Below the pieces are notes generated by a model. It saw nothing but the letters and a program-made list of their open reading frames with translations, searched no databases and was not told where the DNA came from. From Streptomyces sp. NBC_00663 (GTDB taxonomy: Bacteria > Actinomycetota > Actinomycetes > Streptomycetales > Streptomycetaceae), in NCBI RefSeq assembly GCF_036226885.1, contig NZ_CP109027.1:7564001-7628000 (forward strand): a stretch of DNA of 64,000 bases, read 5' to 3'. Position 1 is the stretch's first letter. Each line of letters starts with the position of its first letter. The position numbers and the translations under genes were made by a program. Positions 43,257-51,646 of the stretch are shown here, in pieces.

Positions 43257-44465
43257 ATGTTCGGAATTGTCAGGCCCTGCCGTCATCGGCTCGGCGAGAG
43301 TCTCAAGACCCAGTGGATGGCGCATTTGTGCGGGCTGTGTCTCGCGCTGCGCAAGGATCACGGACAGTTTGCGCGAATCGTCACCAACTATGACGGGCTG
43401 CTCATATCGGTTCTGACGGAGGCTCAGGCGCTGCCGGAGGCCGGTGGGGGGAGGCGTACGGCGGGGCCCTGTCCCTTGCGCGGAATGCGTACCGCCTCCG
43501 TCGCCAGCGGTGAGGGGGCACGGCTCTCCGCCGCCGTCTCGCTGGTGCTCGCCTCGGCCAAGGTCCGGGACCATGTCGCCGACGGGGACGGGCTGCTGGC
43601 CCGCAAGCCGGTCGCGCTCGCGGCGCGCCGGGTCGCGTCGAGCTGGGGTGCGGCGGGGGCTCGTAGTGGATCCGCCGTCGGGTTCGACACCGCCGTGCTC
43701 GTCGACGCGGTCGACCGGCAGCTCGGCATCGAGACGCTCGCCGGGCCCGGGACGCCGATCCTGACCGTGACCGAACCGACCGAGACCGCGACCGCTGCGG
43801 CCTTCGCGCACACGGCCGTTCTGGCCGGACGGCCGGGCAACGCCGCACCGCTCGCCGAGGCCGGAGGGCTCTTCGGGCGGCTCGCGCATCTGCTGGACGC
43901 CGTGGAGGACAGGGAAACTGACGCCGCGTCGGGTGCCTGGAACCCGCTGACGGCCACGGGGACCTCCCTGACGGAGGCGCGGCGGCTCGCCGATGACGCC
44001 GTGCACGGGATCCGGCTGGCGTTGCGGGAGGTGGCCTGGGGGTCTGGGGTCTCCCCAGAAAGGCACAGCGCCGACGCGAAACTGGCGCATGTGCTGCTCG
44101 TGCATGAGCTGCGGGGGTCCGTGGACCGGGCCTTCGGTTCGGCGTCGTGCGGGCACGGGGGCGGCACGGCGGTCATGTCCTCGCCGTACGCGCCGCCCGG
44201 GCCCGGTGGTCCGGGGGTCCCGCCGCCCCCGGAGCCGCCCCGCCGGGACCGGCGTGGGCTGCTCGCGGGGTGTGCGGTGTGGATGGGGCTCGCCTGCACC
44301 TGCCAGATGTGCTGCGGGACCTTCGAGGACCCGTGGAGCCGGCAGCGGCGGGAAGGGCTGTGCAGCGGGTCCGACTGCGGGGACTGCTGTGACTGTTGCA
44401 GCTGCTGTGAGGGCTGCGGCGACTGCTGTGACGGGTGCGACTGCGGCTGTGACTGCGGGTGCTGA
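43257..44465 (+). CDS. DUF5685 protein with cysteine-rich C-terminal tail
   Basis: 402 aa of unknown function. The family start MFGIVRPCRHRLGESL and AHLCGLCLALRKDHGQ contain conserved Cys/His that could bind metal. The long middle is helical and Ala-rich. After a Pro/Gly linker comes GCAVWMGLACTCQMCCGTF, then a tail with 16 cysteines in the last 34 or so residues, alternating with Gly and Asp (DCCDCCSCCEGCGDCC) and ending in Cys. ATG 43257 follows GGGGGG. The 291 bp upstream hold no other gene. Confidence 0.8.
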   Translation: MFGIVRPCRHRLGESLKTQWMAHLCGLCLALRKDHGQFARIVTNYDGLLISVLTEAQALPEAGGGRRTAGPCPLRGMRTASVASGEGARLSAAVSLVLASAKVRDHVADGDGLLARKPVALAARRVASSWGAAGARSGSAVGFDTAVLVDAVDRQLGIETLAGPGTPILTVTEPTETATAAAFAHTAVLAGRPGNAAPLAEAGGLFGRLAHLLDAVEDRETDAASGAWNPLTATGTSLTEARRLADDAVHGIRLALREVAWGSGVSPERHSADAKLAHVLLVHELRGSVDRAFGSASCGHGGGTAVMSSPYAPPGPGGPGVPPPPEPPRRDRRGLLAGCAVWMGLACTCQMCCGTFEDPWSRQRREGLCSGSDCGDCCDCCSCCEGCGDCCDGCDCGCDCGC

Positions 44466-44499
44466 TGTGACGTCAGCCCTCAGTCCCCACCCCTCGGTC

Positions 44500-45444
44500 T
44501 CAGTCCTTCAGCTCGGGTGGTGAGATCTCCGACTTGGTGATCGCCGAGCCCGTCGTACCCCACTTCTTGAGGATCCTGGCGTACGTCCCGTCCTCGATCA
44601 GCTTGTTCACCGCCGCCTGGAACGCCGGCGTCAGCTTCGTGTCCTTCTTGAAGGCGAAGCCGACGTCCAGGCGGTGGTACTCGTTGAGGAACTTCACGCC
44701 GCTCTGGTGGGCCACGGCGTAGCGCAGACCGTTGATGGTGGACATCACCACATCGCTGCGGCCCTGCTGGAGCGAGGACCAGATGGCGCCCTGCTCGTTG
44801 TAGGTCTGCACCTGGTACGCCTTGTCGCCGGCGTCCGTGCACAGGTGCTTGTTCTCCTCCAGCGTCGCCTCGAAGGTGGTGCCCGCGCCGGTCGCGACGT
44901 TCAGACCGCACAGCTGCTTGAGGTCGGTCACCTTGGTGAGCTTGCTGTCCTCGCGGGTGGCGAAGCCCTGGCCGTCGTTGATGTAGGTGACGAAGTCGAT
45001 CGTCCTGCGGCGCTCGTCGGTCACACCGAAGTTGCCGACGCCCAGGTCGTACTTGCCGCTGTCGAGGGCGGGGAGGATCGCCTCGAAGCTCGCCTGCTGG
45101 GTCTTGAGTTCGATGCCGAGCACCTTGGCGACGGCGTTCGCGAAGTCGACGTCCTGGCCCACAAGCGTCTTGCCGTCGTCCAGGATCGAGGTGCCCGGGG
45201 GCTGACCCGAGACGCTGACCGCGAGGGTGAGGCTCGTGGTGCCGGACGGCAGCAACTCGGCCGCCGCCGCGTCCTTCTTGATGGCGGAGACGACGTCCCT
45301 GGTGGGGATCTCGTCGGACTTCGCCGCGGCGTTCACGGCGTCGTCGTCGCTGCCGGAGCCGCACGCGGTGAGGAGCAACGTCGCCGCGGAGATCGCGACA
45401 AAGGGGGCTATCAGTCTGTTTCGGGCGCGCGAAGGCGTACGCAT
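44500..45444 (-). CDS. Amino-acid ABC transporter substrate-binding lipoprotein (family 3)
   Basis: 314 aa. Lipobox LLLTACG after a basic N-terminus; then the family-3 binding fold with LVGQDVDFANAVAKVLGIEL, LDSGKYDLGVGNFGVTDERR and the C-terminal KLIEDGTYARILKKWG. ATG 45444 has AGGAGA about 10 nt upstream. It is the receptor for the divergent permease/ATPase. A leader peptide and terminator hairpin precede it, pointing to cysteine-controlled expression and so to a sulfur-containing substrate rather than glutamate. Confidence 0.9.
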   Translation of the reverse strand: MRTPSRARNRLIAPFVAISAATLLLTACGSGSDDDAVNAAAKSDEIPTRDVVSAIKKDAAAAELLPSGTTSLTLAVSVSGQPPGTSILDDGKTLVGQDVDFANAVAKVLGIELKTQQASFEAILPALDSGKYDLGVGNFGVTDERRRTIDFVTYINDGQGFATREDSKLTKVTDLKQLCGLNVATGAGTTFEATLEENKHLCTDAGDKAYQVQTYNEQGAIWSSLQQGRSDVVMSTINGLRYAVAHQSGVKFLNEYHRLDVGFAFKKDTKLTPAFQAAVNKLIEDGTYARILKKWGTTGSAITKSEISPPELKD

Positions 45445-45559
45445 GGCGGGACTGTCTCCTGTGAGCGAGGAAAGCGCTGAGTGAGGGGAGGGCGCGTGTG
45501 AAGGCGAGGAAGGAGAAAGGGAGAAGGTGAAGCCGGTGAAGCCGGTGAACGCGCAAAAG

Positions 45560-45580
45560 GCGCCCCGGTCACCGGGGCGC
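45560..45580 (-). terminator. Attenuator hairpin between leader peptide and binding-protein gene
   Basis: Perfect inverted repeat GCGCCCCGGT-G-ACCGGGGCGC read on the minus strand, followed directly by CTTTTGCGC. It lies 14 nt after the leader-peptide stop and 115 nt before the gene. A GC stem plus T run between a leader peptide and its gene is the layout of transcription attenuation. Confidence 0.75.
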
Positions 45581-45593
45581 GCAGGGGGTCAGC

Positions 45594-45665
45594 TCAACAG
45601 GAAGAGGACCACACGCGACCGAGGTCGATGTGGGAGCGCTTGACCAGCCACTGCTGTGGATGCAT
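45594..45665 (-). CDS. Leader peptide of the actinobacterial sulfur-gene type
   Basis: 23 codons, too short for standard gene finding. From ATG 45665 it reads MHPQQWLVKR, then SHIDLGRVW and ends SSSC just before TGA. LVKRSHIDLGRV is the conserved core of the short putative leader peptides found upstream of sulfate, cysteine and methionine-related genes in Streptomyces, and those often end in cysteine. A ribosome waiting at the final Cys codon when cysteine is short could prevent the following hairpin from forming. Confidence 0.85.
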   Translation of the reverse strand: MHPQQWLVKRSHIDLGRVWSSSC

Positions 45666-45736
45666 GGGCCAAGTGGAACAGGCATCCGGTGGTGCGTCAA
45701 CTGACCTGAGACGTACGGCTCACAGTGTGGACAGCC

Positions 45737-45767
45737 TTGACAGCGAGGGGAAATGGCCCCGTAGTCT
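45737..45767 (+). promoter_or_regulatory. Probable promoter of permease operon
   Basis: TTGACA (45737-45742) and TAGTCT (45762-45767), spacer 19 nt, about 65 nt upstream of the permease start. On the other strand CAGTTGACGCACC near 45690-45702 is the likely -35 area for the leader transcript. Confidence 0.5.
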
Positions 45768-45832
45768 CGAAAGGCGGCCCTGCTGAGGGGCTCGGCCGTA
45801 TGTGAAGGCGTCTGTCCACACGGAGCTTTCGC

Positions 45833-46690
45833 ATGTCCTCCGACACCCTCGCCAAAGCCCCCGCCGCCCCGGACCTACCCGAGGACGCGGGTTCCCTGCG
45901 GATCGTCCCGCAGCGCCGACCCGGTCAGTGGGCCGCCGCCGTCGCCGTCCTGGTGCTGCTCGCTCTCGCCGTCAACTCGGTCCTGCGCAACGACGCGTTC
46001 CAATGGGACGTCGTCGCCGACTACTTCACCTCGCGGTCCGTGCTGCGCGGCCTGTGGCTCACCCTCTGGCTGACCGCCGTGGTCATGGTGCTCGGCTTCG
46101 CCCTCGGCACCCTGCTCGCCGCGGCCAGACTGTCCGCCAACCCCGTGCTGAGAAGCGTCAGTTGGGGGTACGTCTGGCTGTTCCGGTCGATCCCGATCCT
46201 GGTGCAGCTGCTGCTGTGGTTCAACATCGGGGCGCTGTACCCGCAGATCCTCGGCGTGAAGACCGTCGATCTGCTCGGCCCTGTCACCGTCGCCGTCATC
46301 GGGCTCACCCTGCACGAGGCCGCCTATGCCGCCGAGGTGGTGCGCGGCGGCATCCTCTCCGTCGACCGGGGGCAGATCGAGGCCGCGCAGGCGCTCGGGC
46401 TGGGCCGGGTGCGTCGCTGGTGGCGGATCGTGCTCCCGCAGGCGATGCGCTCCATCGTGCCGCCCGCCGGGAACATGCTGATCGGCACCCTGAAGGGCAC
46501 CTCCATCGTCAGCGTCATCGCCGTACAGGACCTGCTCTACTCGGTGCAGCTCGTCTACCACCGCACCTACGAGGTCATCCCGCTGCTGATGGTGGCCACC
46601 GTCTGGTACACCGTCGTCACCTCGGTGCTCAGCGTCGGCCAGTACTACCTGGAGCGGTACTACGCGCGCGGCTCGGAGACGGCGCGATGA
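45833..46690 (+). CDS. Amino-acid ABC transporter permease
   Basis: 285-aa permease of the polar-amino-acid (HisMQ) family with five or six helices. The GxW LWLTLWLTAVVMVLGF start, LFRSIPILVQLLLWFN, and the ATPase-contact EAA loop EAAQALGLGRVRRWWRIVLPQA are typical, as is YTVVTSVLSVGQYYLERYYA at the end. ATG 45833 has GGAG 7 nt upstream. First gene of a tight five-gene operon (ATGA overlap with the next). Confidence 0.92.
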   Translation: MSSDTLAKAPAAPDLPEDAGSLRIVPQRRPGQWAAAVAVLVLLALAVNSVLRNDAFQWDVVADYFTSRSVLRGLWLTLWLTAVVMVLGFALGTLLAAARLSANPVLRSVSWGYVWLFRSIPILVQLLLWFNIGALYPQILGVKTVDLLGPVTVAVIGLTLHEAAYAAEVVRGGILSVDRGQIEAAQALGLGRVRRWWRIVLPQAMRSIVPPAGNMLIGTLKGTSIVSVIAVQDLLYSVQLVYHRTYEVIPLLMVATVWYTVVTSVLSVGQYYLERYYARGSETAR

Positions 46691-48462
46691 GCCGGGGCAC
46701 GCTGGTGATCGTCGGGGCCGGGCCGCGGGGGACCGGTCTGATCGAGCGGATCGCCGCCAACGCGCCCGAGCTGTACGCCGGTTCGGGCCTGTCCGACGAA
46801 GGCTTCGACATTCATTTGGTGGACCCGCACCCGCCCGGCGCCGGCCGCATCTGGCGGGAGGCCCAGTCGCCGCTGCTGTGGATGAACTCGCACGCCGAGG
46901 ACGTCACCATGTTCACCGACGAGACGGTGACCATGGAGGGCCCTGTGCGCCCCGGGCCCACCCTGCACGAGTGGGCCGGCATCGACGGCGCCACCTTCGC
47001 CGACCGGCAGCTCCAGGGCTCCTATCTGCGCTGGGTGCACGAGCGGGCGGTGGCGGACCTGCCGGACGGCATCCGCGTCCACCACCACCCACGGCGCGCC
47101 CTGCGGATCAGCGGTCCGCGCGAGGGACGTCAGCAGGTGTGGCTGGAGGGCCGCCCACGCCCGCTGCTCGCCGACCTGGTCGTGCTCGCCCTCGGCCATC
47201 TGGACGCCGAACTGGATGATGAACAGGGTGAGTTGGCGGCCTACGCCGATGCGCACGGGCTCGTCCACCTCCCGCCCGACTTCACCGCCGACAGCGACCT
47301 GTCCGCGCTGGCACCCGGCGAGCCGGTCCTCGTCCGGGGCTTCGGGCTGGCCTTCGTCGACCTGATGGTGCTGCTCACCGAGGGGCGCGGCGGACACTAC
47401 GAGGGGGACACCTATGTGCCCTCGGGGCGGGAGCCGGTGCTGTACGTCGGGTCGCGGCGCGGAGTGCCGTACCACTCGAAGATCGGGTACGAGTGGACCG
47501 GCGAACGCCCGCCGCTGCCCCGGTTCTTCGGTCCTGCCGAGGTGGATCAACTGCTCGCGCTCCCTGGCGGGTTCGACTTCCGGCGGGACGTGTGGCCGCT
47601 GGTGGAGAAGGAACTGGGGTTCGCCCACTACCACCGGCTCTTCGATGTCCACCCCGAACGGACCTCTGTCGCCTGGGCGGACTTCGAGGAGAAGTACACG
47701 GCGGCCGAAGGCGAGGCGGAGATCCGGGCGCTGGTGGCGTCCGCCGTGCCCGATCCCGCCGACCGGCTGGACCTGGCGGCGCTCGACCGGCCCCTGGAGG
47801 GGATGCGGTACGGGTCGTACGAGGAGTTCCAGGTAGGGCTTCGGGGGTATGTGGAGCGGGATCTGAGCCGACGTCATGATCCGTCGTACAGTCCGGACTT
47901 GGCGGTCTTTCTCGGGCTGCTCTCCGTCTACGGGCAGCTGATCCGGCTCGGCGGTGTCCCGTCCTGGTGGCACGGCTTCTTCAGTTATCTGGCCTCCGGG
48001 CCGCCCGGGCCCCGGCTGCGGCAGCTGCTCGCCCTCTCGCGGGCCGGTGTCCTGAAGTTCGTGGGCGCCGACATGAGTGTCACCGCCGAGGACGGGGTGT
48101 TCCGGGCGGCGAGCGCGACCGTGCCGGGAGCCTTCGTCGAGGCGCGGGCGCTGGTCGAGGCGCGGCTGCCGGAGCCCACCGTCGGGCGGGCCCGGGACAC
48201 GCTGCTGCGTGAGCTGTACGCCGACGGGGCCGCCGAGACGCCCGACGGGCTGCTCCGGGTCGACCCCGCCGACGGGCGGATCCTCGACCGGAACGGCCGG
48301 CCGCATCCCCGGCGCTTCGCCCTCGGCCCCTACACCGACGGCCGTACCCCCGGCGCCTTCACCCGGCCCCGCACCGGCGGACCCGCGTTCCGGCAGAACG
48401 ACGCGACCGCGCGGGCGGCACTGCTGTTCCTGGGGGCGCAGGCCGGGCGGGCGGCGGCGTGA
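46687..48462 (+). CDS. FAD/NAD(P)-binding protein, pfam13454-like
   Basis: 591 aa. The N-terminal dinucleotide fold is TLVIVGAGPRGTGLIERIA, followed by DIHLVDPHPPGAGRIW and the second motif LVVLALGHLDAELDDE; GFGLAFVDLMVLLTEGRGG is also characteristic of this group. Relatives occur beside siderophore, sulfur and amino-acid genes, with unclear reactions. It is embedded between the permease and ATPase of one transporter, so it should act on the imported compound or supply reduced flavin to the two downstream monooxygenases; this role is inferred. Confidence 0.82.
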   Translation: MSRGTLVIVGAGPRGTGLIERIAANAPELYAGSGLSDEGFDIHLVDPHPPGAGRIWREAQSPLLWMNSHAEDVTMFTDETVTMEGPVRPGPTLHEWAGIDGATFADRQLQGSYLRWVHERAVADLPDGIRVHHHPRRALRISGPREGRQQVWLEGRPRPLLADLVVLALGHLDAELDDEQGELAAYADAHGLVHLPPDFTADSDLSALAPGEPVLVRGFGLAFVDLMVLLTEGRGGHYEGDTYVPSGREPVLYVGSRRGVPYHSKIGYEWTGERPPLPRFFGPAEVDQLLALPGGFDFRRDVWPLVEKELGFAHYHRLFDVHPERTSVAWADFEEKYTAAEGEAEIRALVASAVPDPADRLDLAALDRPLEGMRYGSYEEFQVGLRGYVERDLSRRHDPSYSPDLAVFLGLLSVYGQLIRLGGVPSWWHGFFSYLASGPPGPRLRQLLALSRAGVLKFVGADMSVTAEDGVFRAASATVPGAFVEARALVEARLPEPTVGRARDTLLRELYADGAAETPDGLLRVDPADGRILDRNGRPHPRRFALGPYTDGRTPGAFTRPRTGGPAFRQNDATARAALLFLGAQAGRAAA

Positions 48463-48546
48463 CAGTGGCCGTTCGGCGGCTTGGAAGCGGCCGTTTTCGG
48501 CGGCCTGGCACCCCCCTCACCACTACTTCTGCGAGGAACCCCACCC

Positions 48547-49308
48547 ATGACCGTCATGGTCGACATCAGGTCCGTCCACAAGAGCTTCGGCTCCCTGGAA
48601 GTGCTCAAGGGCATCGACCTCACCGTGCGCGCCGGCGAGGTCACCGTGATCCTCGGTCCGTCCGGCTCCGGCAAGTCGACGCTGCTGCGCACCATCAACC
48701 ACCTGGAGAAGGTGGACGGCGGCGCGATCAGCGTGGACGGGGCGCTGATCGGCTACCGGCGCTCGGGCGACCGGCTGTACGAGCTGCCCGAGCGCGAGGT
48801 GCTCCGGCAGCGCACTCACATCGGCTTCGTCTTCCAGAACTTCAACCTCTTCCCGCACCTCACCGTGCTGGACAACGTCATCGAAGCGCCCGTCTCCGCG
48901 CTGAAGCGCCCCCGCAAGGAGGCCGTCGCGAGCGCGCGCAAGCTGCTCGACCGGGTCGGGCTCGCCGAGAAGGCCGACGCCTACCCCCGTCAGCTCTCCG
49001 GCGGACAGCAGCAGCGGGTCGCCATCGCGCGGGCGCTCGCGCTGGAGCCGAAGCTGCTGCTGTTCGACGAGCCGACGTCCGCGCTCGACCCGGAGCTGGT
49101 CGGTGAAGTCCTCGACGTCATCAAGGACCTGGCCCATCAGGGCACGACGATGATCGTCGTCACGCACGAGATCGGGTTCGCCCGGGAGGTCGCCGACACG
49201 GTGGTGTTCATGGACGACGGACGGATCGTCGAACAGGGCCCGCCGGGCGAGGTACTGGACAACCCGCGGCACGACCGCACGCGGGCCTTCCTCTCGAAGG
49301 TGCTGTGA
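48547..49308 (+). CDS. Amino-acid ABC transporter ATP-binding protein
   Basis: 253 aa, polar-amino-acid (GlnQ-type) ATPase. Walker A GPSGSGKST, FVFQNFNLFPHLTVLDNVIE, signature LSGGQQQRVAIARALALEP, Walker B LLLFDEPTSALDPE and the H-loop VVTHEIGFARE are intact. ATG 48547 has GAGGAA 10 nt upstream; an ATG at 48556 is possible. It follows the FAD gene by 84 nt, and its stop overlaps the next start. Confidence 0.94.
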   Translation: MTVMVDIRSVHKSFGSLEVLKGIDLTVRAGEVTVILGPSGSGKSTLLRTINHLEKVDGGAISVDGALIGYRRSGDRLYELPEREVLRQRTHIGFVFQNFNLFPHLTVLDNVIEAPVSALKRPRKEAVASARKLLDRVGLAEKADAYPRQLSGGQQQRVAIARALALEPKLLLFDEPTSALDPELVGEVLDVIKDLAHQGTTMIVVTHEIGFAREVADTVVFMDDGRIVEQGPPGEVLDNPRHDRTRAFLSKVL

Positions 49309-50357
49309 TGCTGCATCTCTCCGCCGCCGTCGACCAGCCGTCCGTGTACGACGCCGCCTCCTACGTCGACCTGGCCCGCCTCGCCGAGCACGGCGTCCTC
49401 GACTTCGTGACGCTGGACGACACCTTCGCCCGCCCCGGCCCCGACGCCCTGTCCGTGCTGTCGCGGGCCGCCCCCGCCACCAGCCGCGTCGGCCTCGTCC
49501 CGACCGTCACCACCACACACACCGAGCCCTTCCACGTCCAGGCCGCCGTCGCCACCCTCGACTGGGTCAGCCGGGGCCGGGCGGGCTGGCGGCTCGATGT
49601 CTCCACGACCGAGGGCGAGGCCCGGCTCTTCGGTCGCCGGCACGCCGCCCCCGCCGAGGAGCTGTGGCGGGAGGCCGGTGAAGTGGCCGACGTGGCCGCG
49701 CGGTTGTGGGACAGCTGGGAGGACGACGCCGAGATCCGGGACGTGCAGACCGGCCGCTTCATCGACCGGGACAAGCTGCACCACGTCGACTTCGAGGGCT
49801 CGGGCTTCTCGGTCAGGGGCCCCTCGATCGTGCCCCGGCCCCCGCAGGGTCACCCCGTCCGGGTCGTCGACGCCACCGAGGGGCACGCCCGGCGCACCGC
49901 CGCACGGTACGCCGACGTGGCGCTGGTGCGGGTGGCGAACGCCGCACAGGCCGGTGCCGTACGCGACCAACTCCGCAAGGACGCCGCCCGGTTCGGCCGG
50001 AACCCCGATGAGCTGCGGGTGCTTGTGAGCCTCCTCGCCGACCTCGGCGACGGGGAGCACGCGGCCGAGCCGGGCCACGGCGGAGGCGGCCCCCGGCAGA
50101 CCGCGCAGGGCCCGCTGTACCGGGGCGGCCCCGTCGACCTCGCCGAGCTGATCGCCTCCTGGCACGCGGCCGGTGCCGTGGACGGTTTCCACCTCACGCC
50201 CGCCGCACCCCGCCGTGACCTGGAACGCCTGGTCAACGGCACGGTTCCGCTGCTCCAGCACCGGGGCCTGTTCCGCACCTTCTATCCGGGCAGCACGCTC
50301 CGGGAGCACCTGGGTCTCGCCCGGCCCGCCAACCAGTACGCGGGGGACGCCTCATGA
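49308..50357 (+). CDS. Luciferase-like flavin monooxygenase 1
   Basis: 349-aa LLM-class flavin-dependent oxidoreductase (TIM barrel). VLDFVTLDDTFARPGPDAL, RVGLVPTVTTTHTEPFHVQ, TLDWVSRGRAGWRLDVST and AEELWREAGEV match the SsuD/NtaA branch, which hydroxylates sulfonates, thioethers or amines using reduced FMN. Starts at ATG 49308 touching the ATPase stop (or GTG 49305) and overlaps the next gene by ATGA. A His/Gly-rich insert lies at about residues 250-265. Confidence 0.88.
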   Translation: MLHLSAAVDQPSVYDAASYVDLARLAEHGVLDFVTLDDTFARPGPDALSVLSRAAPATSRVGLVPTVTTTHTEPFHVQAAVATLDWVSRGRAGWRLDVSTTEGEARLFGRRHAAPAEELWREAGEVADVAARLWDSWEDDAEIRDVQTGRFIDRDKLHHVDFEGSGFSVRGPSIVPRPPQGHPVRVVDATEGHARRTAARYADVALVRVANAAQAGAVRDQLRKDAARFGRNPDELRVLVSLLADLGDGEHAAEPGHGGGGPRQTAQGPLYRGGPVDLAELIASWHAAGAVDGFHLTPAAPRRDLERLVNGTVPLLQHRGLFRTFYPGSTLREHLGLARPANQYAGDAS

Positions 50358-51646
50358 AGAAGCAGATCCATCTGGCCGCCCACTTCCCGGGCGTCAACAA
50401 CACCACCGTATGGGCCGATCCGCGGTCGAGGTCCCAGATCGAGTTCTCCTCCTTCGAGCATCTCGCCCGCACCGCCGAGCGCGGGCTGTTCGACTTCTTC
50501 TTCCTCGCGGAAGGGTTGCGGCTGCGCGAACACAAGGGCCGGGTCCATGACTTGGACGTGGTCGGGCGGCCGGAGTCCCTCACCGTGCTGAACGCGCTCG
50601 CCGCCGTCACCGAACGGCTGGGGCTCGCCGCGACGGTCAACGCGACCTTCAACGAGCCGTACGAACTGGCCCGCAGACTGGCCACCCTCGACCATCTCAG
50701 CGGGGGCCGGGCCGCCTGGAACGTGGTGACCTCCTCCGACGCCTTCACCGGCGAGAACTTCCGGCGCGGCGGCTTCCTCGACCCGGCCGAGCGGTATACG
50801 CGGGCCGCCGAATTCGTCGCCACGGCACGGGAGTTGTGGGACTCCTGGACGCCGGACGGCGTGTCCCGCCCGTTCGCGCACCGGGGGCGGCACTTCGACA
50901 TCGCGGGCGAGTTCACCGTGCCGCGCTCGCCGCAGGGGCATCCGGTCGTCATCCAGGCCGGGGACTCCGACGAGGGGCGGGAGTTCGCGGCGGCCACCGC
51001 CGACGTGATCTTCACGCGGCAGAGTTCGCTGGAGGCGGGGAAGGCCTTCTACGCCGATGTGAAGAGGCGGCTCGCCAAGTACGGCCGCGCGCACGACGAT
51101 CTGAAGATCCTGCCCGGCGTCTCCGTCGTCCTCGGCGACAGCGCCGCCGACGCGCGTGAGAAGGCCGCCGAGATCAGGCGGCAGCAGACCTCTCCGCAGA
51201 ACGCGATCCTCACGCTGGAGCAGATCTGGGGCACCGACCTCTCCGCGTACGACCCGGACGGACCGCTGCCCGACATCGATCCGGTGCCGGAACCGACGCT
51301 CACCCAGGGGCGGACCCGGCGCGGTGACACCGTGGCGATCGCCGAGAAGTGGCGGGCGCTCGCGCAGGAGAAGGGGCTGTCGATCCGGGAGACCGTGATC
51401 GAGGCGGGCGGCCGGCAGGCCTTCGTCGGCACCCCGCAGGCCATCGCCGCCGAACTCGACGCGTTCGTGCAGGCCGACGCCGCCGACGGCTTCATCCTCG
51501 TACCGCATCTCACCCCCGGCGGACTCGACGAGTTCGTGGACCGGGTGGTGCCGCTGCTCCAGGAGCGCGGGGTCTTCCGCACGGAATACGAGGGCACCAC
51601 CCTGCGCTCCCACCTCGGGCTCACGGAACCGTCGGGGAAAGGCTGA
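50354..51646 (+). CDS. Luciferase-like flavin monooxygenase 2, NtaA/SnaA/DszA type
   Basis: 430 aa. HLAAHFPGVNNTTVWADPRS, FDFFFLAEGLRL, ATLDHLSGGRAAWNVVTSSD and FRRGGFLDPAERYTRAAEFV are signatures of the NTA monooxygenase family, whose members cleave C-S or C-N bonds (DszA, SnaA, YxeK, YtnJ). Last gene of the operon, co-translated with monooxygenase 1. In Bacillus subtilis, genes of this family sit with amino-acid ABC transporters in operons for S-substituted cysteines, the closest known analogy. Confidence 0.92.
   Translation: MKKQIHLAAHFPGVNNTTVWADPRSRSQIEFSSFEHLARTAERGLFDFFFLAEGLRLREHKGRVHDLDVVGRPESLTVLNALAAVTERLGLAATVNATFNEPYELARRLATLDHLSGGRAAWNVVTSSDAFTGENFRRGGFLDPAERYTRAAEFVATARELWDSWTPDGVSRPFAHRGRHFDIAGEFTVPRSPQGHPVVIQAGDSDEGREFAAATADVIFTRQSSLEAGKAFYADVKRRLAKYGRAHDDLKILPGVSVVLGDSAADAREKAAEIRRQQTSPQNAILTLEQIWGTDLSAYDPDGPLPDIDPVPEPTLTQGRTRRGDTVAIAEKWRALAQEKGLSIRETVIEAGGRQAFVGTPQAIAAELDAFVQADAADGFILVPHLTPGGLDEFVDRVVPLLQERGVFRTEYEGTTLRSHLGLTEPSGKG

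Follow-up and report, generated by a model that had tools for sequence, protein, structure and literature searches.

A leader peptide with a conserved TGT cysteine codon: a candidate cysteine-responsive attenuator upstream of an amino-acid-type importer gene in Streptomyces

In Streptomyces sp. NBC_00663, a gene for a family-3 (amino-acid type) ABC substrate-binding protein is preceded by a 23-codon leader ORF whose single Cys codon, TGT, directly adjoins the stop codon, and whose coding sequence doubles as an RNA hairpin. Judging from its codon choice, its hairpins, its promoter geometry, the C-rich tract that follows it and its sulfur-related gene context, this leader is probably part of an attenuation RNA that responds to cysteine. 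The window, a 64,000-nt stretch of DNA, holds the leader ORF, a 9-bp GC hairpin and the binding-protein gene in this order on the minus strand (Table 1), as the initial annotation had described and as direct reading bears out. The gene starts 149 nt past the leader stop, and the gap between stop and hairpin, previously given as 14 nt, is 13 nt.

The leader, its relatives and its gene neighbourhood

Conservation of the peptide at orthologous loci had been named beforehand as a check, and it was found: named genomes contained 353 relatives, and all of the best 80 (72-96% identity) carry the leader. Of these 80 loci, 79 bear the label Streptomyces and one Kitasatospora; they comprise 38 different leader DNA sequences, and the ATG occupies the identical codon, nine codons ahead of the core Arg, in every locus. 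The nearest named relative is a Streptomyces with a binding protein that is 96% identical. Tails of these orthologous peptides read SSSC in 46, SCSC in 28 and SASC in 6, the window leader having one Cys. Of 121 genomes belonging to the genus, 72 match a codon-degenerate pattern for the core HID(F/L)GRVW, and none matches the reversed pattern. Among the binding-protein hits obtained from 61 genomes, the best 30 were examined: a leader was located within 1.5 kb upstream of 11, all of at least 63% identity, and was not found within that distance of the remaining 19 (at most 61% identity), one of which (G007) has a related leader about 2 kb upstream.

At more distant loci, too, a related leader can lie about 2 kb from the binding-protein gene. 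Five of these loci (L404-L406, L409 and L410) have two leaders each, of which one precedes the binding-protein or permease region and the other lies close to where the FAD gene ends; L409 and L410 each have one leader with the core HIDFCRVC, which disrupts the hairpin within the ORF. One importer-type leader, L133, has a frameshift just ahead of the Cys codon, resulting in a peptide that lacks Cys and the usual stop. A search of window positions 44400-46000 against Rfam returned no match at E values up to 1.

Table 1. Features of the leader locus, with positions in the window
Feature	Position	Strand	Basis or detail
Family-3 (amino-acid type) ABC substrate-binding protein	44500..45444	-	PF00497, 98.5 bits
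C-rich, G-poor stretch after stop, candidate Rho loading region, overlaps hairpin	45474..45583	-	C-G skew 0.264
GC hairpin, terminator-like, 9 bp, GCGCCCCGG-TGA-CCGGGGCGC, then CTTTTG	45560..45580	-	read directly
Leader ORF, MHPQQWLVKRSHIDLGRVWSSSC, 23 codons	45594..45665	-	read directly; ATG at 45665, TGA at 45596-45594
Key Cys codon TGT, putative regulatory codon	45597..45599	-	conserved TGT in orthologues and generic leaders
In-ORF RNA hairpin, CCACAUCGAC / CUCG loop / GUCG-(bulge C)-GUGUGG	45609..45633	-	MFE and centroid folds
-10-like TCCACT at -12 to -7	45672..45677	-	94-100% per base in 80 named loci
-35-like TTGACG, 35-30 nt ahead of ATG	45695..45700	-	each base at least 90% in 80 named loci
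Divergent ABC permease, amino-acid type	45833..46690	+	PF00528; TIGR01726 above cut-off
FAD/NAD(P)-binding protein	46687..48414	+	PF13454
ABC ATPase, best model cystine TcyN	48481..49308	+	333.5 bits (cut-off 406)
LLM-class monooxygenase 1	49305..50357	+	PF00296
LLM-class FMN monooxygenase 2, NtaA/DmoA family	50354..51646	+	TIGR03860 above cut-off

By its sequence, the leader is of a known actinobacterial kind, the Cys leaders that stand before sulfur genes, and falls into a subfamily of its own. The peptide core L-x-x-R-x-H-x-D-L-x-R...C is common to two family models, NF042934 ('putative leader peptide', cis_reg_atten) and NF042936 (Ms4527A); the window leader scored 17 bits against the former (14.7 bits in the genome search; curated cut-off 27), with its core motif aligned through the last model position, the Cys, and 21.1 bits against the latter (curated cut-off 45). 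With NF042934 it shares the core, the Cys near the stop and a sulfur-gene context, sulfur genes standing behind several members, and it differs, as a rule, from the generic members in its HID(F/L)GRVW core, its in-ORF RNA hairpin and the downstream hairpin found in about half of its orthologues. Sixteen leader-like ORFs with this core lie in the source genome, 15 of them possessing the key Cys. Pfam assignments for genes behind these sister leaders include a ThiS-like protein (followed, by reading, by a cysteine synthase-like ORF), cysteine dioxygenase, sulfite reductase, rhodanese, LLM monooxygenases, a transporter permease, flavin reductase and TauD, which supports the leader kind and the sulfur context that the initial annotation had put forward; for others, a 2OG oxygenase, a sugar-type binding protein, a ROK protein and a GST-like protein, the tie to sulfur is less clear. 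In the leader-like ORFs L035/L265 (one place), L249 and L261 the key Cys is replaced by Gly (GGC or GGG), and one of them precedes a GST-like gene. A loose DNA pattern for the core was dropped for the source genome, where it gave thousands of chance matches and the control behaved alike, and the family model was used instead.

Mycobacterial polycysteine leaderless sORFs (Ms4527A, NF042936), which have a forerunner in Shell 2015 (PMC4633059), are described as cysteine-responsive in PMC13236596 and PMC9094748, and a citing paper there speaks of translation attenuation. The Ms4527A type is leaderless and resembles the window leader in being a short ORF with Cys codons by the stop that stands before sulfur genes; the window leader, which is predicted to be leaderless, differs from it in having one Cys (C-S-C in some orthologues) and no Cys run. 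The relevant sections of Seliverstov 2005 (PMC1262725) present Cys leaders without terminators before cys operons and suggest Rho; these, too, are small ORFs whose Cys codons lie close to the stop, they carry Cys runs in Mycobacterium, Propionibacterium and Bifidobacterium, and no Streptomyces Cys case appears in those sections. A reannotation of S. lividans (PMC8079986) reports, in its section on the subject, eight leader peptides, none assigned there to Cys; the metL given there has three Cys towards its end. In the open-licence literature we found no paper on Cys leaders of Streptomyces or on how the Streptomyces form works. The leader family is widespread (NF042934 matches in 61/61 genomes of the genus and 110/148 of the class).

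The initial annotation had also suggested a sulfur substrate for the importer, and we consider this plausible from the gene content, in which an amino-acid-type importer is linked to two LLM monooxygenases. Among the 68 named loci that are long enough, the permease and FAD genes are present in 68, the ATPase and first LLM genes in 63 and the second LLM gene in 40. Cystine TcyL is the second-best model for the permease, below its cut-off; against a cystine assignment, the cystine model ranks only third for the binding protein and is likewise below cut-off. Ahead of the permease start, 69/80 named orthologues (L267-L346) carry GTGTGAAGGC followed by CACGGAGYYYTY, which could fold over the start codon of the permease gene and its ribosome-binding site, and at 45798-45835 (+) the window has a looser variant.

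The promoter elements of the leader are strongly conserved (Table 1), and their geometry predicts a leaderless transcript that probably starts at the ATG itself. A Shine-Dalgarno sequence is absent from the consensus of the 80 named loci, and a generic promoter/terminator scan found neither element. Between the back-to-back promoters, at 45707-45724 of the window, lies a TGTGAG-N8-CTCA inverted repeat, a possible regulator site that recurs in many orthologues.

Codon choice and the hairpin within the ORF

The key Cys codon is TGT almost without exception. This held for 80/80 named orthologues (best 80 of 353), in which the next base is always T, for 100/100 of those among 101 HID(F/L)GRVW leaders that have a Cys (the other being the frameshifted L133) and for 95/96 of the generic leaders with a Cys at this place (99 distinct leaders, with TGT 95, TGC 1 and not Cys 3; the motif filter kept 102/106 loci, and those dropped include L043, TGT by reading). 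In predicted genes of the same loci, called by a GC-at-third-position rule, TGT accounts for 545/3397 Cys codons (16%); this rule, in place of annotation, also served to call genes behind the sister leaders and at the leader-only loci described below. The leaders are related and the counts are therefore not independent; within the source genome alone, 15/15 diverged leaders agree on TGT while adjoining synonymous sites vary. Other Cys codons in the generic leaders are TGC 108 times and TGT 34 times, with TGC 33 versus TGT 2 at position 6 (six codons past the first core Arg), and the Cys-rich ones lean to TGT near the key codon (10/27 at position 11 and 4/9 at position 12, two codons and one codon ahead of the key, respectively). 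A Cys directly after the key codon is TGC in 19/21 HID(F/L)GRVW leaders. Speaking against specificity for the key site, TGT also encodes the extra Cys that precedes it by two codons (15/15 in HID(F/L)GRVW leaders and 28/28 in named orthologues).

The base after the key TGT is restricted as well. It is C in 72, T in 20, A in 3 and G in none of 95 generic leaders, and G is also never seen in 57 importer-type leaders (some counts for this type use 57 of 59) or 35 RD-type leaders, as against 212/545 TGT codons in genes. As far as we have searched, a near-invariant TGT key codon whose next base is never G is new, and in the open-licence literature we came across no paper that treats the choice of UGU in Cys leaders.

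We infer that UGU may be the slowest Cys step, through wobble pairing and a pyrimidine 3' neighbour. A limited search of the genome found one tRNA-Cys(GCA), which probably reads both Cys codons. Selective charging of isoacceptors, for which the theory is given in PMC1183508, would not explain a UGU fixed against a strong genome bias if one tRNA-Cys reads both codons. The notion that codon speed sets the sensitivity of an attenuator becomes testable by a single base change. We further propose, tentatively and with the odds against it, that a 'slow codon' rule, UGU followed by a pyrimidine, holds across the class and raises sensitivity, and that the leader is, jointly with this, a self-standing cysteine-gauge RNA (promoter, translated tetraloop-hairpin leader, UGU sensor and terminator) acting beyond the adjacent gene.

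Conservation of the peptide raises the alternative that the nascent chain itself arrests the ribosome in response to free cysteine or another sulfur compound, with UGU as a pausing codon only. TnaC senses tryptophan by such nascent-peptide arrest, and R, D and R stand 13, 9 and 6 residues before the Cys in 99/99 generic leaders, with H conserved in 76/99 and L in 90/99. The motif filter behind these 99 leaders, however, requires the first R and limits the residues allowed at the D, L and second R positions, and the conservation may be partly at the RNA level; we regard such sensing by peptide arrest as unlikely.

The coding sequence of the core is frozen beyond what the peptide demands. In the 81 matches to HID(F/L)GRVW, which allowed all synonymous codons and were counted by reading, CAC, ATC, GAC and GTG were each used in 81, TTC in 75 or CTC in 6, and GGT in 79, so that synonymous sites are frozen except at the Arg wobble and at two Gly codons. 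GGT makes up only 10.6% of Gly codons in genes and is kept in all of the best 80 of 353 named relatives. This codon set is what the stem CCACAUCGAC/GUCG-n-GUGUGG demands, with a YUCG loop and one free bulge. Between 54 and 58 of the 58 distinct sequences keep canonical pairing at each stem pair. With pairs this invariant, true covariation is scarce, and the case for the hairpin rests on the frozen synonymous sites. Of 200 shuffles of the window's leader region, 192 fold less well than the native sequence (z -2.17). By reading, the full stem was absent from all five D-(L/F)-G-R leaders checked outside the subfamily, and the in-ORF stem thus looks like a subfamily trait. As far as searched, a YUCG-loop RNA hairpin hidden in peptide code is new.

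At the DNA level the same hairpin is an inverted repeat, and the frozen block could in principle be an operator for a protein, with the ORF secondary. One arm of the repeat, however, has a free unpaired base, the loop keeps the form of a YUCG RNA tetraloop, and conservation extends to TGT and the reading frame, all of which make an operator very improbable.

The downstream RNA and the proposed mechanism

The initial annotation had placed a hairpin with a T run before the gene and had proposed attenuation by cysteinyl-tRNA supply. The hairpin part of this claim stands well above chance: a hairpin of at least 6 bp occurs in 44/77 distinct orthologous segments versus 12.2 ± 2.9 in dinucleotide shuffles, with stems that vary in both arms. 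The T run does not fare as well. In the window it consists of four T preceded by one C, and among the 44 hairpin segments at least five T in the next nine bases were found in 2, the longest T run being 4, so that a real U tract is absent; the hairpin itself is missing in 33/77 segments. With slightly different segment limits the hairpin was present in 46/79, starting 16-25 nt past the first base of the key codon in 41/46. Of 33 RD-type leaders, 13 have its start at 19-21 nt, and the RD-type total of 15 is not clearly above shuffles (11.8 ± 2.4). As a family-wide feature the hairpin was rejected, with 29/95 generic leaders against 23/94 in a control window, both above shuffles.

The classical form of this proposal, an intrinsic-terminator attenuator in which tRNA-Cys is sensed through a terminator/antiterminator switch, draws on the variable stems of this hairpin and its set distance from UGU. 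It is weakened by the missing U tract, by the third of segments and more that lack the hairpin and by the fact that no competing antiterminator pairing was seen on reading the fold and the alignment, and we think it improbable. The RNA past the leader stop is, in contrast to other intergenic RNA, C-rich and G-poor: the C-G skew averages 0.261 in 68 orthologous leaders (those of the 80 named loci of at least 15 kb) versus 0.003 in 424 other 5' intergenic stretches, 0/424 of which reach the leader median. Because there is no real U tract, the hairpin is partial and the post-leader RNA is C-rich, we lean with modest confidence to Rho-type termination, helped by the hairpin in some species. A terminator-like hairpin that lacks a real U tract and is followed by a C-rich tract is new as far as we have searched.

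In the tna operon of E. coli, a ribosome stalled at the end of the TnaC leader shields a Rho site, and the signal is high free tryptophan. The window leader, with its C-rich, G-poor region just past the leader stop as in a TnaC-like system, would work in a similar way but with low Cys-tRNA as the signal. Transcription would begin at the leader ATG, and the ribosome would read 22 codons before the nascent peptide and the slow UGU rendered the final step sensitive to Cys-tRNA. The in-ORF hairpin could act as a pause signal, letting the ribosome catch up with RNA polymerase. When cysteine is ample, the ribosome would pass UGU and be released at the adjoining stop, exposing the downstream RNA with its GC hairpin (in about half of orthologues) and its C-rich, Rho-type tract, and the transcript would end after about 110 nt or slightly later. 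When cysteine is short, a ribosome held on UGU would cover this RNA, and transcription would enter the binding-protein gene.

Two further points weigh against this cysteine-responsive attenuation. The leader has a single Cys codon and no run, and a ribosome on UGU, given its footprint, stops a few nt short of the downstream hairpin, so that stalled and released ribosomes would not obviously differ in their effect on the hairpin.

Leaders standing without the binding-protein gene

Among 59 importer-type leaders, the binding-protein gene stands behind 40, an LLM gene behind 1, and in 18 the binding-protein gene is absent, three of these having sepF 401-552 nt behind on the same strand; here, as in the checks of fetched loci that follow, the genes looked for were the nine window genes. 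As these 59 were found through an intact leader, we made a leader-independent comparison from orthologues of the FAD protein. In 121 genomes there are 52 such orthologues of at least 64% identity, and the leader pattern lies within 2 kb of 52/52, FAD and leader coordinates being compared by reading. No binding-protein orthologue adjoins the leader in 18/52 of these loci, which were fetched, and the key codon is TGT in 18/18; for the other 34, importer presence is inferred from spacing or earlier hits. Among the 18, G017 keeps the permease, in G036 the leader precedes the FAD gene, and five (L353, L360 and L397-L399) have another ABC set in the divergent operon. Where the FAD protein is more distant (52-58% identity; eight loci), 5 loci match the leader pattern, 2 have the HIDFCRVC variant, and in 1 no leader was found at that place. 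A leader and promoter that remain intact where the binding-protein orthologue is absent (18/52 loci) are new as far as we have searched.

In 32 leader-only loci, chosen for their leader, TGT and GGT are kept in all, and TTGAC is in place in 51/51 fetched loci. Orphan status played a part in choosing these 51, a selection from which the comparison of 52 loci alone is exempt. Promoter decay in orphan leaders was considered and rejected, the apparent decay being one-base offsets. The hairpin was at its usual place in 12/32 leader-only loci versus 11/19 with the gene. In a survey of neighbours that looked for nine window genes, the next window gene at the 32 loci was the convergent DUF5685 gene in 24, sepF on the leader strand in 6, the FAD gene in 1 and none in 1, and 5 of the 32 have a coding-like ORF in the gap. 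On a tree of FAD proteins (78 rows, 19 leader-only) the leader-only label changes at least 16 times, 8 of them forced by well-supported branches, and is no more clustered than when shuffled. Since the leader lies between importer genes, losses, if such they were, would each have spared it.

This pattern speaks for a leader that acts on its own, its transcript of about 110 nt or its peptide also working at another site, either in trans or at the divergent operon of FAD and LLM sulfur genes: the leader persists near every FAD orthologue, with codons and promoter preserved, through repeated changes of the label. Against it, no target was found. Pairing of the leader to the ribosome-binding site of the divergent permease, seen in the window, was rejected, the complementarity being present in only 2/80 orthologues. 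The losses could also have happened not long ago, or species may exchange the locus by recombination, the label being no more clustered than when shuffled. The other ABC sets at 5 of the 18 loci, the sepF, FAD and coding-like ORFs behind some of the 32 leaders, the lower share of hairpins there and the 3 of 8 distant FAD loci without the pattern likewise count against autonomy, which we hold to be rather unlikely. The leader-only loci may reflect a relic, recombination of the locus or a role beyond the importer, the last of which seems clearly less likely than not. Leaders kept without a gene in cis would point to a free-standing RNA or peptide regulator in sulfur uptake that derives from an attenuator.

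In the window, the DUF5685 protein is encoded at 43257-44465 (+), convergent to the binding-protein gene, and has a very Cys-rich tail. At leader-only loci, readthrough from the leader would run antisense to the DUF5685 gene.
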